Program-made: the position numbers and the translations under genes
From: Rubellimicrobium mesophilum DSM 19309
Lineage (GTDB): Bacteria > Pseudomonadota > Alphaproteobacteria > Rhodobacterales > Rhodobacteraceae
DNA length: 64,000 nucleotides
Direction: 5' to 3'
Assembly: GCF_000600335.2 (NCBI RefSeq)
Contig: NZ_KK088559.1
Location: 1-64,000 of the forward strand
Notes under the pieces: generated by a model
What the model was told of the DNA's origin: nothing
Database searches by the model: none
The model's input: the letters and a program-made list of their open reading frames with translations, nothing else
Part shown: positions 27,570-32,636 of the stretch, piece after piece
How positions within the stretch are numbered: position 1 is the first letter of the stretch
Layout of the letters: each line of letters starts with the position of its first letter

Positions 27570-27671
27570 GCCGGAGCGGCCGTTGTCTCGTCGCGCGCCC
27601 GGGTCCTCCGGCCCGGGCGCTTGCGTTCGGGGCCCGGGCGCGGCACGATCCGGCGAGGGGGGATGGGTCTC

Positions 27672-28925
27672 ATGCGCTATTCGGGCGTTCGCCTGATCCG
27701 GGAAGGGCTGACCGGCAACCGGGGCTGGACTCGTGCGTGGCGCGATCCGGTGCCGAGGGCCGAGTATGACGCCATCGTCATCGGAGGCGGCGGGCACGGG
27801 CTCTCCACCGCCTATTACCTCGCGAAGAACCATGGCATCGCCAACGTCGCGGTGCTGGAGAAGGGCTATCTCGGCGGCGGCAACGTCGGGCGCAACACCA
27901 CCATCGTGCGGGCCAACTACTTCCTGCCGGGGAATTCGGAGTTCTACTCGCATTCGCTCAAGCTCTGGGAGGGGCTGGAGCGGGAGCTGAACTACAACGT
28001 GATGCACTCGCAGCGGGGGCTCATCAACCTGTTCCACTCGGACGGGCAGAGGGACGCCTTCGTGCGGCGCGGCAACGCCATGGCGGCGCAGGGCGACGAC
28101 GCGGTGCTGCTGGACCGCGAGGGGGTGCGGGAGCATCTGCCGTATCTGGACTTCGAGCAGGCGCGGTTTCCCATATACGGCGGGCTGTATCATCCGAGGG
28201 GCGGAACGGCGCGGCACGACGCGGTGGCCTGGGGCTATGCCCGCGGGGCGGACCGGCGCGGGGTGGACCTGATCCAGAACTGCGAGGTCACGGGGATCGA
28301 CATCGAGAACGGCGTGGTCCGGGGCGTGCGGACCTCGCGGGGGGCGATCCGGGCGCGGAAGGTCGCCATCGTGGTCGCCGGGCGGTCCTCGCAGGTGGCC
28401 GCCATGGCCGGGATGCGGCTGCCGATCGAGAGCCATGTGCTCCAGGCCTTCGTGACCGAGGGGCTGAAGCCGGTGATCGACCATGTCGTGAGCTTCGGCA
28501 TGGGGCACTTCTACATCTCGCAGAGCGACAAGGGCGGGCTGGTCTTCGGCGGCGACCTCGACTTCTACGCGAGCTACGCAGGCAGAGGGAACCTGCCGAT
28601 GGTCGAGCACGTGATGGAAGCTGGCATGACGCTGATGCCGATGATCGGCCGGGCGCGGGTGCTGAGGTCCTGGGGCGGTATCATGGACATGAGCCCGGAT
28701 GGCTCGCCCATCATCGACAGGACCCATGTCGAGGGGCTCTTCCTCAACTGCGGGTGGAACTATGGGGGGTTCAAGGCGGTCCCGGCCTCGGGGTGGTGCC
28801 TCGCGCACCTGATGGCGACGGGGCAGCCGCACGAGGTGGCGAGCCGGTTCCGGCTGGATCGGTTCGCGACCGGGCGGGGACTGATGGACGAAGAAGGGAC
28901 GGGGGCGCAGCATTCGCTGCACTGA
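27672..28925 (+). CDS. soxB: Sarcosine oxidase subunit beta
   Basis: A 417-residue flavin subunit of heterotetrameric sarcosine oxidase, which oxidatively demethylates sarcosine to glycine. The FAD-binding motif IVIGGGGHGLSTAYYLAKNH begins near residue 37, followed by the characteristic EKGYLGGGNVGRNTTIVRAN. Near the C terminus DMSPDGSPIIDRTHVEGLFL and NCGWNYGGFKAVPASGWCLA are typical of SoxB. ATG 27672 gives the family start MRYSGVRLIREGL with the G-rich RBS about nine bases away; ATG 27663 is also possible. It is the first gene of the sox operon. Confidence 0.93.
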   Translation: MRYSGVRLIREGLTGNRGWTRAWRDPVPRAEYDAIVIGGGGHGLSTAYYLAKNHGIANVAVLEKGYLGGGNVGRNTTIVRANYFLPGNSEFYSHSLKLWEGLERELNYNVMHSQRGLINLFHSDGQRDAFVRRGNAMAAQGDDAVLLDREGVREHLPYLDFEQARFPIYGGLYHPRGGTARHDAVAWGYARGADRRGVDLIQNCEVTGIDIENGVVRGVRTSRGAIRARKVAIVVAGRSSQVAAMAGMRLPIESHVLQAFVTEGLKPVIDHVVSFGMGHFYISQSDKGGLVFGGDLDFYASYAGRGNLPMVEHVMEAGMTLMPMIGRARVLRSWGGIMDMSPDGSPIIDRTHVEGLFLNCGWNYGGFKAVPASGWCLAHLMATGQPHEVASRFRLDRFATGRGLMDEEGTGAQHSLH

Positions 28926-28935
28926 GGGGACCGCC

Positions 28936-29466
28936 ATGAACAAGACGCGAGAGCTAGAAATTCGCCCGATTGTGGAATATACTTCCTTGCAGTATGCCGG
29001 CGAATATACGCACAATCACAGCATTCTCGACGACCAAAACAACATGCAATATTGGCTGGATGTTATCGCCGACCTAAAGACGAGCAATGGCCTGTATATC
29101 TTTTACGATAGTTCCACCGCCCCTGTTTACGTGGGCATCGCACGCGGTCAGTTTATCTGGAAGCGCTGCAATCAATCTTACAACGAATTTAGGGCGAGGG
29201 GGCGGCAGATCCTGAAAGTAGACCACCCAACCACCGAGGGTGGGCGATACGTCAAGGATCGTCCTCGGCGCATCTACCGTGCGGACTTGGCTTTGAAGAA
29301 CATAGCAACGTACTTTTCTGCTTACGCTGTCAGCAAAGAACATATTGGTGGACTTGAGGCTTTTGCAATCCGAGCCTTTGGTGGCAACTTGATGAACGTC
29401 CGAATGGAGGGGCGTGGCGGGTTCGGACTTCCAACATTCCAGGCTGAAGAGGTCCCGGAAGAGTGA
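28936..29466 (+). CDS. GIY-YIG-like nuclease-domain protein inserted in the sox operon
   Basis: A 176-residue protein not normally part of sarcosine oxidase operons. Residues 50-70 read NGLYIFYDSSTAPVYVGIAR, matching the GIY...YIG core as GLY...YVG. Downstream lie a plausible catalytic Arg (FIWKRCNQ) and a late Glu/Asn pair in HIGGLEAFAIRAFGGNLMN. The DNA is visibly richer in A+T than everything around it and uses codons rare in the neighbours (ata, aat, ttt, aca), a sign of transfer. It starts 11 bases after soxB behind gaGGGGAccgcc, and its stop overlaps the soxD start as GTGA. Possibly a free-standing homing-type or mobile nuclease. Confidence 0.7.
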   Translation: MNKTRELEIRPIVEYTSLQYAGEYTHNHSILDDQNNMQYWLDVIADLKTSNGLYIFYDSSTAPVYVGIARGQFIWKRCNQSYNEFRARGRQILKVDHPTTEGGRYVKDRPRRIYRADLALKNIATYFSAYAVSKEHIGGLEAFAIRAFGGNLMNVRMEGRGGFGLPTFQAEEVPEE

Positions 29467-29722
29467 GAGTGACCTGCCCCTTCTGCGGCGAGAGGGATCG
29501 CCGGGAGTTCACCGTGCAGGGGGACGAGACGTCGCTGCACCGGCCCGAGCGGGATGCGGGGGCGGAGGCCTGGCACGACTACGTGCACCTGCGGGACAAC
29601 CCGGCGGGGCGGCTGCGGGAGATGTGGTATCACGATCCCTGCGGCGCGTGGCTCGTGGTGGAGCGGGATACGGTGACGCACGCCGTTCACGGGACGGCGC
29701 TCGCGCGGGGGTCTCGCGGTGA
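29463..29722 (+). CDS. soxD: Sarcosine oxidase subunit delta, one-base frameshift at the 3' end
   Basis: About 86 residues. SoxD is a small zinc-binding subunit; the N terminus VTCPFCGERDRREF supplies a CxxC and the pattern YVHLRDNPAGRLREMWYHDP, GAWLVVERDTVTHAVHGTAL is diagnostic. It starts with GTG inside a GTGA overlap with the GIY-YIG gene. As sequenced, the frame runs on to 30038 through soxA. With one more G in the run 29707-29711, it would end ...LARGVSR at TGA 29720-29722, recreating a GTGA overlap with soxA. I give that natural end. Confidence 0.8.
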
Positions 29723-32636
29723 GGGTCGGTGGCAAGGGGCTCACTCAGGGCGCGCGGTCGGTCGGGTTCACCTTCGACGGCGTGGACTATACCGGGGTCG
29801 AGGGGGACACGCTGGCCTCGGCCCTGATGGGGGAGGGGGTGCGGCTGGTGGCGCGCTCCTTCAAGTACCATCGGCCGAGGGGGGTGCTGAGCGCGGGCTC
29901 GGAGGAGCCGAACGCGCTGGTGACGGTCGAGGGCGTGCCCAACACGCGGGCGACCGTGCAGGAGGTCTGGGACGGGATGGCAGCGCGGAGCCAGAACGCG
30001 CGGCCCCGGCTCTCCTTCGACGTGCTGGGGGTGAATGACCTCCTGAGCCCGTTCCTGGGGGCGGGGTTCTACTACAAGACCTTCATGTGGCCGCGCGCCT
30101 TCTGGGAGCGGCTCTACGAGCCGGTGATCCGGCGGGCGGCGGGGCTCGGGGCGCTGACCGGCAAGGCGGACGACGCGCCGTTCGAGAAGGCCTGGGCCTT
30201 CTGCGACCTCCTGGTGATCGGGGCGGGCCCCACGGGGCTCATGGCGGCGCTGGTCGCGGGGCGCGCGGGGGCGGACGTGATCCTGGCCGACGAGGGGTCG
30301 CGGATGGGCGGGCGTGCGCTCGCCGAGACGGACCGGATCGGAGGGCAGGCGCCGCATCTCTGGGCCGAGGGGGTGCTGGAGGAGCTGCGCGAGATGCCGA
30401 ACGTGCGGCTGATGCCGCGCACGACCGTGACGGGGGCCTATGACGGCGGGACCTACGGAGCGGTCGAGCGGGTCGGGCTGCACCTCGCGCCGCGCGAGCA
30501 TCGGCCGCAGGAGTGCTTCTGGCGGATCGTGGCCACGCGGGCGGTGCTGGCGGCGGGGGCCATCGAGAGGCCGCTCGCCTTCCCGGACAACGACCGGCCG
30601 GGGGTGATGCTGGCGGGTTCGGTGCGGGCCTACCTGAACCGCTGGGGCGTGGTGCCGGGGCCGAGGATCGCGGTCTATGGCAACAACGACGACGCGCACC
30701 GGACGGCGCGGGACCTCGCCGCCGCCGGGCTGCAGGTCGCGGCGCTGATCGACACGCGGGAGGGGGTGACCCTGACGGGCGCGCCGTTCCCGGTGCTCTC
30801 GGGCGCGCGGGTGACGGGGACCAAGGGGCGGCTCGGGCTGCGGTCGGTCACGGTGGCGGGCCCGGATGGCCGGCGGGAGTTCGAGGTGGACGGGCTCGCG
30901 GTGTCGGGGGGCTGGTCGCCCTCGGTGCACCTGACCTGCCACATGGGCGGGCGGCCGGTCTGGGACGAGGGCGTGCAGGGCTTCGTCCCGCGCGAGGGGG
31001 CGGTGCCGGGGCTGGTCGCGGCGGGCGCGGCGGCGGGGCGGTTTTCGACGGCGGAGTGCCTGAGGGACGGGGCGAGCGCGGCGGGGGCGGCGCTGGCCGA
31101 CCTGGGGCTCGCGGTCCCGGAGGTGGAGATGCCGGACGCCGAGGGGGCCCGGGCCGCCGTGGGGGTCTATCCGGTGGGCGACGGCGCCAAGCAGTTCGTG
31201 GACTTCCAGAACGACGTGACGGTGAAGGACATCCGGCTGTCGGCGCAGGAGGGGTTCCAGAGCGTCGAGCACATGAAGCGCTACACGACGCTCGGCATGG
31301 CGACGGACCAGGGCAAGACGGCGAACGTGCCCGCCATCGCGGTGCTCTCGGAGACGCTGGGGAGCCCCATCGCCTCGACCGGGACGACGACCTTCCGTCC
31401 GCCCTTCGTGCCCGTGTCCATCGCGGCCTACGGCGCGGGCGGGCAGGGCGTGGGCTTCGCGCCGCAGCGGTTCACGACCTCGCACGAGGCGTCTGTCCAG
31501 CGCGGCGCGCCCATGGTCGAGGCGGGGCTCTGGTATCGGCCCTCCTACTTTCCCCGGCCGGGGGAACTCACCTGGCGGCAGAGCTGCGACCGCGAGGTGC
31601 TGATGGTGCGGAACGCGGTCGGCGTCTGCGACGTGAGCACGCTGGGCAAGATCGACATCCAGGGGCCGGACGCCGGCGCATTCCTTGATTTCCTGTATGC
31701 GAACACCTTCTCGACGCTGCCGGTGGGCAAGGTGCGTTACGGGCTCATGCTGCGCGAGGACGGGTTCGTGCTGGACGACGGCACGACCGCGCGGCTGGGC
31801 GAGAGCCATTACGTGATGACGACCACGACCGCCTTTGCCGGGGCGGCGATGCGGCATCTGGACTTCGTGGCGCAGGTGCTGCGGCCGGAGCTGGACGTGC
31901 AGGCGGTCTCGGTGACGGAGCAGTGGGCGCAGTTCTCGCTCGCCGGGCCGAGGTCGCGGGAGCTCTTGCAAGGGTTCGTGGACGCGGACCTGTCGGATGC
32001 CGCCTTGCCCTACATGGGGTGCCTGGAGGCGACCGTGATGGGGGTTCCGGGCGGGTGTTCCGCATCAGCTTCTCGGGCGAGCGGGCCTACGAGGTCGCGG
32101 TGCCGGCGCGGTACGGGGCGTCGCTGCATCGGCTCTTGGTGGCGCAGGCGGAGACGCTGGGCGGCGGTCCGTATGGGATGGAGGCGCTGAACGTCCTGCG
32201 GATCGAGAAGGGCTTCATCACCCACGCCGAGATCCACGGGCGGGTGACGGCCTTCGACATCGGGATGGACCGGATGGTGTCGAAGGCGAAGGACTGCCTG
32301 GGCTGGGCGTCCTCGTGGCGGCCGGGGCTCTTGGAGGAGGACCGGGAGCAGCTCGTGGGCCTGAGGCCGGTGGCGCGGACGGGGCAGCTCACGGCGGGGG
32401 CGCATCTCTACGGGCGCGACGACGCGGCCACGCGGGTGAACGGGCAGGGCTATGTCACCTCGGCCGGATGGTCGCCCACGCTGGACGGGCCGCTGGCGCT
32501 CGGGTTCCTGAAGAGGGGGCGGGCGCGGCACGGGGAGGTCGTGCGGCTCGTGGACGCGATGCGGTCGGTCGAGACTCTGTGCGAGGTCTGCGACCCGGTG
32601 TTCCTGGACCCCGAGGGAGGGCGGATGCGTGGCTAG
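29719..32636 (+). pseudogene. soxA: Sarcosine oxidase subunit alpha, frameshifted near codon 775
   Basis: About 970 residues when reconstructed, the normal size of SoxA. It binds NAD, FMN and tetrahydrofolate and releases the methyl carbon as 5,10-methylene-THF. N-terminal [2Fe-2S]-like fold GFTFDGVDYTGVEGDTLASA; NAD/FAD Rossmann CDLLVIGAGPTGLMAALVAG near residue 172; C-terminal aminomethyltransferase (GcvT-like) half beginning around residue 600. The first frame is lost at about 32050 after ATVMGVPGG, and the adjacent frame continues VFRISFSGERAYEVAVPARY to the stop at 32636. One extra G at 32049-32055 joins them as GVPGRVFRISF. Overlaps soxG by eight bases. Confidence 0.85.

Follow-up and report, generated by a model that had tools for sequence, protein, structure and literature searches.

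A predicted GIY-YIG nuclease gene between soxB and soxD of Rubellimicrobium mesophilum, a candidate for intronless homing in a bacterial operon

The stretch of DNA analysed here, called the window, comprises 64,000 nucleotides of contig NZ_KK088559.1 of Rubellimicrobium mesophilum DSM 19309 and contains the genes of a sarcosine oxidase (Table 1). Direct reading and translation revealed an ORF of 176 codons, from ATG to TGA, between soxB and soxD. The stop codon of soxB (28923-28925) is followed by GGGGACCGCC and then by the ATG of the ORF, which leaves 10 bases between the two genes. This stretch 3' of soxB precedes soxD in the empty junctions of congeners and precedes the ORF in the window, which agrees with the claim of an earlier note on this DNA that the ORF takes the position of the ribosome-binding site after soxB. 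The position of the ORF and its GTGA overlap with soxD, both described in that note, were confirmed.

Table 1 Features of the sox locus in the window.
Feature	Position	Strand	Basis
soxB, sarcosine oxidase subunit beta	27672..28925	+	TIGR01373 E 6e-199
End of soxB stop and G-rich Shine-Dalgarno-like stretch	28924..28935	+	direct reading; empty congener junctions
Free-standing ORF, 176 aa, predicted GIY-YIG fold	28936..29466	+	translation, AlphaFold2 model, fold comparison, alignments
GTGA, shared by the end of the ORF and the start of soxD	29463..29466	+	direct reading
soxD, sarcosine oxidase subunit delta	29463..29722	+	TIGR01374 E 4.4e-26, below model cut-off
soxA, sarcosine oxidase subunit alpha	29719..32636	+	TIGR01372 E 1e-301, below cut-off
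soxG-like ORF, 177 aa	32629..33162	+	ORF list; named by position only

The start of soxB was set by likeness to soxB of Cereibacter; the longest ORF starts at 27621. The end of soxD was placed by analogy with Cereibacter, in which the soxD stop overlaps the soxA start, and the frame as sequenced stays open to 30038. soxA has one frame break near 32050, with two tblastn pieces in different frames. The missing soxD stop at the place where Cereibacter has it (about 29706-29711) and the frame change in soxA (about 32047-32055) both lie in or beside runs of G. They may be sequencing errors or a real decay of the operon 3' of the insert.

The composition of the ORF is foreign, as the earlier note had stated. 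Its GC content is 51.2% and its GC3 59%, compared to a GC3 of 91% in soxB and 94% in soxA of the window, and both values are the lowest among 43 ORFs of the window, a set of non-overlapping frames of at least 150 aa that was picked mechanically and may include some that are not genes. No second copy was found in the genome of R. mesophilum, which is 91.6% complete; the next match (on contig C105, E 0.65) was disregarded. The ORF may have its own promoter. Two sigma-70-like sites were found between 28800 and 29600, at 28955-28983 on the forward and at 29030-29003 on the reverse strand, both within the ORF; shuffled sequences gave 0.3 sites on average (s.d. 0.6), and the scan is not counted as evidence.

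Which protein does the ORF encode? The earlier note had called it GIY-YIG-like. Pfam gave no match for the protein up to E 10, NCBIfam reached E 0.1 at best, and the GIY-YIG family PF01541 was matched by two homologues below its cut-off, the relative from R. arenae at E 0.036; thus, no curated model of Pfam or NCBIfam matched above its cut-off for this fold. PHROG 24961, of unknown function, matches residues 39-87 (E 5.8e-6), and PADLOC gave a weak match to UzuA (E 0.0059), which was absent in three other homologues tested. An AlphaFold2 model built with five sequences had a mean pLDDT of 67.7, with 83-87 for residues 41-80. At the top of its VIA list of structural matches were GIY-YIG nucleases: UvrC (1yd6, Z 8.3 over 92 residues), Eco29kI (6.0 over 105) and I-TevI (5.4 over 79). 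These three, UvrC with its GIY-YIG domain, occupy rows 1-6 and 8-10 (Z 8.3-5.4), and rows 7, 11-13 and 15-16, among them 2lwf (Z 6.7), PD-T4-3 (4.7) and Hpy188I (3.1), are proteins that we take to be GIY-YIG as well. Since a Z of 7-8 is common for unrelated models and UvrC alone exceeds 8, the weight for the fold rests on the agreement of this list with the sequence motif. Foldseek also ranked UvrC first to fourth, with a best E of just 0.023. A profile of six homologues (A2) found four stretches of the GIY..YVGKA type in the phylum (E about 1e-3), and among the sequences of the PDB only matches at E 0.31 and 0.95, the latter being UvrC. Structure prediction, which the earlier note had named as a check, yielded the fold whose absence would have spoken against its claim. 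The results support an insert at the soxB-soxD junction that is foreign in composition and encodes a protein with a predicted GIY-YIG fold.

The active site of the GIY-YIG superfamily is made up of two tyrosines, a glutamate, an asparagine and an arginine in the helix that follows YIG. Y54, Y65, E141 and N154 are invariant in the alignment of all six homologues; matched by motif and spacing, without superposition, they are putative active-site residues. R77 is assigned less surely: it is invariant in the three proteins encoded at sox junctions (the sox-type proteins), is replaced by Glu in the three other homologues and lies, by our reckoning, two residues further from the YIG tyrosine than the catalytic arginine of I-TevI. 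Within the sox clade, identity is 0.68-0.80 at codon position 2 and 0.30-0.34 at codon position 3. Judged by this pattern, the protein is under amino-acid selection in the clade.

Homologues at the same soxB-soxD junction are encoded in two other genera. The one from Cereibacter changlensis JA139 (G122, loci L007 and L011) has 173 aa, 49% identity and a GC3 of 51%, and the one from the genome G428, which belongs to another genus, has 166 aa and a GC3 of 0.57. In each of the three sox-type ORFs, PHROG 24961 covers 42-49 residues around GIY..YVG (E 6e-6 to 1e-5). More distant are a copy in R. arenae SYSU D00782 (G002, loci L003 and L008), with 36-38% identity and outside the sox operon of this organism, a protein of 249 aa from Acidovorax radicis N35 (L014, also an IMG/VR viral contig) and one of 248 aa from a Pseudomonadota MAG (L012). 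The latter two carry about 70-90 additional N-terminal residues that are HTH-like, with weak matches to PHROG 4441 (E 0.0025) and to MerR (PF00376, E 0.001, below cut-off). In the tree, the three sox-type proteins are separated from the R. arenae, Acidovorax and MAG copies with a support of 99; the grouping of Cereibacter with G428 has a support of 52. The HTH-like N terminus may have been lost in the sox-type proteins or gained in their relatives.

Distant copies lie in or near mobile DNA. In R. arenae, the copy lies between DDE transposase genes and 4.4 kb from a gene for a terminase large subunit (PF20441, PHROG 9). Close to the homologue on the Acidovorax prophage contig are an excisionase-like ORF and genes for a DNA methyltransferase and for a replication initiator; another ORF of this contig was read by eye as an integrase.

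The ORF is rare. The protein itself found 2 of 61 relatives and, in the family, 4 of 394 genomes (window included in both), two of the latter judged to be chance matches: G340 (E 1.4e-4) and G365 (E 2.3e-4) were dropped, as six-frame translation lacked the GIY..YVG motif and tblastn at E <= 1 remained empty. In the order, profile A1 gave matches in 3 of 390 genomes, that of the window among them; the alternative set out in the earlier note, an ORF present throughout the order with host-like codon use, did not come true. With profile A2, one of three genomes in the genus of G428 and the single genome in that of C. changlensis were found (the window belongs to neither set), and a further draw from the family gave 2 of 335, a draw that seems to overlap with the others and in which G000 is not listed. 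Across the phylum (349 genomes), A2 gave, besides the window, the four weak UvrC-like matches only; by eye these are GIY-YIG domains of UvrC or exonuclease type, and they were not counted as members. The sets overlap, and their counts cannot be added. NCBI places Rubellimicrobium and Cereibacter in Roseobacteraceae and Paracoccaceae, which are counted here as one family (f1). A tblastn search with the ORF protein found nothing in 50,697 phage and 72,556 plasmid records, nor did one with the Acidovorax homologue in the phage records. Initial scans of genome contigs and viral contigs with the ORF protein alone gave no match, and in three scans of viral contigs with alignments the Acidovorax prophage contig was the sole match.

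How is the junction occupied in relatives that lack the ORF? This comparison, which the earlier note had proposed, covered 116 soxB-soxD junctions, made up of 55 and 60 loci and that of G428, which was included since it was known to be filled; the choice is biased to operons with Cereibacter-like soxD, so that the counts are not frequencies in the family, and eight of the junctions have a soxB with less than 75% identity to that of Cereibacter and are perhaps paralogues. The junction is filled with the GIY-YIG ORF in the window, C. changlensis and G428, hence in three genera. It is empty in five of the seven congeners of the window (G001, G002, G004, G006 and G007), with gaps of 9-58 nt, and in G351, a congener of G428, with 9 nt. 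The best locus of the congener G005 has a soxB just 69% identical to that of Cereibacter and perhaps is a paralogous operon; G003 has only a weak match to soxD and no locus. Thus, a stand-alone ORF was found at a fixed site, sporadically and with an empty site in relatives, as expected of a free-standing homing endonuclease. The 3' end of the insert varies: GTGA in the window, TGATG with an overlap of 1 nt in Cereibacter and a gap of 2 nt in G428 (TAGCCGTG).

The gap between soxB and soxD ranges from 8 to 568 nt. It is at most 30 nt in 45 of the 116 junctions, 31-60 nt in 16, 61-250 nt in 35 and more than 250 nt in 20, which does not agree with the statement of the earlier note that soxBDAG is normally gapless. 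The 20 inserts longer than 250 nt fall into seven groups without mutual tblastx similarity: a small-protein group (DIRPGCYERVYS..) with ten members, the GIY-YIG group with three, a second small-protein group with three, and four singles. The ten-member insert (L029, L074, L089, L104, L108, L115, L123, L128, L131 and L136) has 494-549 nt and mostly an ORF of about 160-170 aa with the motif DIRPGCYERVYSD.HLR.HP.QVV and, by eye, a signal-like start; two of its proteins were tested and gave no Pfam family above cut-off. Among the singles, a PNPOx-like ORF was recognised (PF01243, E 4.6e-9), whose operon is perhaps paralogous. Another single, at the junction of L052 (G373), is an A/T-rich ORF of 123 aa with a GC content of 0.44 that had no match in Pfam, PHROG or PADLOC. 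A conserved repeat-like element, GCCTCCGGCGGGGATATTT (up to four substitutions) or CCGAGGGGCRGCGCCCCT (up to three), is present in 18 of the 116 gaps; this element (GCCTCCGGCGGGGATATTT ... CCGAGGGGCAGCGCCCCT) occurs in L021, L022, L053, L056, L064, L067, L071, L092 and others. From the variety of gaps and inserts, the soxB-soxD junction is a slot that tolerates insertions. The view of the earlier note that seamless insertion is unusual does not hold, as the junction houses many different inserts in this group of bacteria. The coupled ends, moreover, differ between genomes.

The genes on either side follow their hosts. Where the site is filled, soxB and soxD are like their counterparts in congeners as far as the border of the insert: over the final 60 nt of soxB, the window has an identity of 0.92 with the congeners G002 and G004 and of 0.63-0.70 with the other filled hosts, and G428 has 0.88 with G351. 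The ORF therefore did not pass from genus to genus along with the sox operon. When the window is compared with the other filled hosts, these 60 nt are less alike than most of upstream soxB, so the end of soxB is not an outstandingly conserved target. Co-conversion tracts in soxB and soxD of the filled sites were sought and none were seen.

The silent sites allow a comparison of the history of the ORF with that of its flanks. At fourfold sites, the ORFs of Cereibacter and G428 are identical in 11 of 43 cases, 0.26, which equals the random expectation of 0.26; for the same two genomes the observed and random values are 0.69 vs 0.47 in soxB, 0.62 vs 0.46 in soxD and 0.61 vs 0.45 in soxA. With the excess seen in the flanks, about 20-24 identical sites would be expected (P 0.002-0.003 with the rates of soxD and soxA, 4e-5 with that of soxB). 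Random silent sites in the ORF next to non-random flanks argue for separate arrivals, and the sequences are pointing to this for Cereibacter and G428, with the caveat that sox genes, being codon-biased, may change more slowly at silent sites and so give the same picture. The two pairs with the window do not show it: the excess over random is 0.16 in the ORF compared to 0.29, -0.01 and 0.08 in soxB, soxD and soxA for the window and Cereibacter, and 0.01 compared to 0.16, 0.09 and 0.15 for the window and G428.

The displaced copy in R. arenae bears a possible trace of soxB. The 38 nt that precede it match the end of soxB (29 of 38 with the window) and read MDEEEAGSQNLLQ in the frame of soxB, and the distance from this tail to the ATG equals that of the window within one base. 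Aligned with the soxB end of the window, the tail scores 40 and the next separate place in the 15-kb locus 27 (854 stretches); none of 20,000 mononucleotide shuffles reached 40, their maximum being 32. The soxB ends of three other Rubellimicrobium genomes gave 36-40, a score reached by one of the 854 stretches in each case. With the soxB end of G428 the tail was again best (30, next 27), and with that of Cereibacter it was second (32 vs 34 elsewhere in the locus). A relic of soxD to the right of the copy was not significant, as 15 to 423 of the 854 stretches scored as high over eight soxD starts. The soxB-like tail suggests that this fourth copy in the family f1 is probably also tied to the end of soxB, though its place in the tree is with the distant relatives.

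Taken together, we propose that the ORF encodes a phage-derived, free-standing GIY-YIG nuclease that acts as an intronless homing endonuclease and has its home at the 3' end of soxB, the soxB-soxD junction; we assign this reading a probability of roughly 45%. The protein would nick or cut the uninterrupted soxB-soxD DNA in a related cell that had received a donor copy, and repair would then copy the ORF into the cut site. Lying between the soxB stop and the soxD start, the ORF would use the stretch that leads into soxD where the site is empty, and soxD would find a ribosome-binding site in the tail of the ORF; it is therefore probably translated with the operon at little cost to the host. No DNA-binding domain beyond the core was recognised in the protein, and as it lacks the HTH-like N terminus, the choice of target would reside in the N-terminal 45 residues or in an elaborated core, which would resemble the GIY-YIG restriction enzymes.

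The earlier note had left the choice between a free-standing homing endonuclease and a protein co-opted into the operon. The former is the better of the two, because copies recur at the junction and the displaced copy has a soxB-like tail; cleavage and homing are what we infer from it. No observation spoke for co-option into sarcosine metabolism. Homing is favoured by the finding that all four copies of the family seem tied to the end of soxB, and it is weakened in that no trace of co-conversion was seen, the junction has many other occupants and the copies are few. Given six other groups of inserts at the same junction, the recurrence could reflect the site rather than the nuclease. It is tempting to speculate, if somewhat more tentatively, on chromosomal intronless homing in a wider sense, in which a GIY-YIG nuclease of phage origin, devoid of the HTH-like N terminus seen in its relatives, homes repeatedly into the 3' end of soxB across genera, the downstream gene being tightly linked each time, and the junction is a docking slot with several occupants.

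What else could have brought the ORF to this place? A permissive slot, at which a phage-derived nuclease, as remnant or passenger of a mobile element, landed several times without site-directed homing, is the main rival and a possibility to be taken seriously, if a doubtful one. It would account for the 71 of 116 junctions with a gap of more than 30 nt and the seven mutually dissimilar groups among the 20 long inserts, and it fits the distant relatives in or near mobile DNA, such as the Acidovorax prophage contig and the terminase and transposases of R. arenae. A passenger, however, would be expected at other places too, and all four copies in f1 are tied to the soxB end, though four is a small number; nor does selection on the protein speak for a mere passenger. 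Vertical inheritance, with a single ancient insertion before the three genera parted that was then lost nearly everywhere or kept as a co-opted gene of the operon, we regard as unlikely. The same junction is used in all three genera, the flanks are vertical, the protein is under selection, the topology of the ORF tree (Cereibacter with G428, support 52) is compatible with descent, and two of the three ORF pairs have no clear excess of silent divergence over the flanks. But most lineages must then have lost the ORF (3 of 390 genomes of the order retain it), G351, G676 (also a member of the genus of G428) and five congeners of the window with this junction do not have it, the GC3 of 0.51-0.59 in the sox-type ORFs has not moved toward the 0.89-0.94 of soxB and soxA in the window and Cereibacter, and the silent sites of the Cereibacter and G428 ORFs are more diverged than their flanks.

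A nuclease of restriction or defence that is expressed with the sox genes and acts on invading DNA, not on its own insertion site, is in our view quite improbable. The alignment of Eco29kI across residues 1-164 of the model (Z about 6) and the weak UzuA match (E 0.0059) would agree with such a role, as would the gene for the DNA methyltransferase two ORFs upstream of the Acidovorax homologue (L014:4249-5307, PHROG 363, E 4e-87) and, in R. arenae, the restriction-endonuclease-like gene at a distance of about 1 kb from the displaced copy (L008:5261-6274; PF22558, E 2.4e-41; PDDEXK_13, E 2.6e-22). In the window, Cereibacter and G428, however, sox genes adjoin the ORF and no methyltransferase, as would be the mark of a type II GIY-YIG restriction-modification system; the UzuA match did not extend to the other homologues tested, and both the recurrent site and the soxB-like tail would be left unexplained. 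Homing at the soxB end stays the reading that we prefer.

Phages provide the best-known free-standing homing nucleases, encoded between conserved genes. A cellular case that recurs at a single junction in a metabolic operon, with near relatives that have the site empty and a displaced copy that carries its old border, would make intronless homing testable in bacterial chromosomes. In addition, the seven mutually dissimilar groups of inserts between soxB and soxD are a natural system to study how operons accept new genes. Among the titles and openings of abstracts listed for the open-licence literature, none reports a GIY-YIG gene in a sarcosine oxidase operon; PMC5906684 mentions both terms and, in its excerpted part, treats another subject.

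The ORF represents an unnamed family of the known GIY-YIG superfamily in an unusual place. With the GIY-YIG domain at the N terminus of UvrC it shares its best structural match (Z 8.3) and a weak match of sequence profiles. UvrC itself acts in repair and has about 600 aa, whereas the ORF encodes such a domain on its own, extended at the N terminus and interrupted by an insertion. Like the type II enzymes Eco29kI and Hpy188I, it is a small GIY-YIG nuclease by prediction, and Eco29kI aligns over 105-108 residues; unlike them, it has no methyltransferase gene beside it, and neither enzyme was found when the sequences of the PDB were searched with A2. PHROG 24961 is a phage profile of 234 positions, and its likeness to the sox-type ORFs is limited to the motif region. 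The closest parallel for the arrangement is offered by the Seg proteins of phage T4, which according to excerpts of two accounts are encoded by intergenic, free-standing GIY-YIG genes, take part in intronless homing and cleave mostly in neighbouring genes (PMC2988022; PMC1564403); the free-standing enzymes of T4 cleave at distances of hundreds to thousands of bases, and co-conversion tracts result (PMC2988022, in excerpt). As in T4, a stand-alone gene for a protein with predicted GIY-YIG fold lies in the gap between conserved genes, in the same direction and sporadically among relatives; unlike T4, its place is a catabolic operon of bacteria, no separate DNA-binding domain was recognised in the protein of about 176 aa, no trace of co-conversion is seen, and homing is deduced. 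Free-standing GIY-YIG ORFs of bacteria were already reported in 2006, and the bacterial members of the homing cluster were mostly in or near prophages or transposons, as far as the excerpt of that paper goes (PMC1564403); the excerpt describes none that, like the ORF of the window, lies in a metabolic operon or recurs at one junction.
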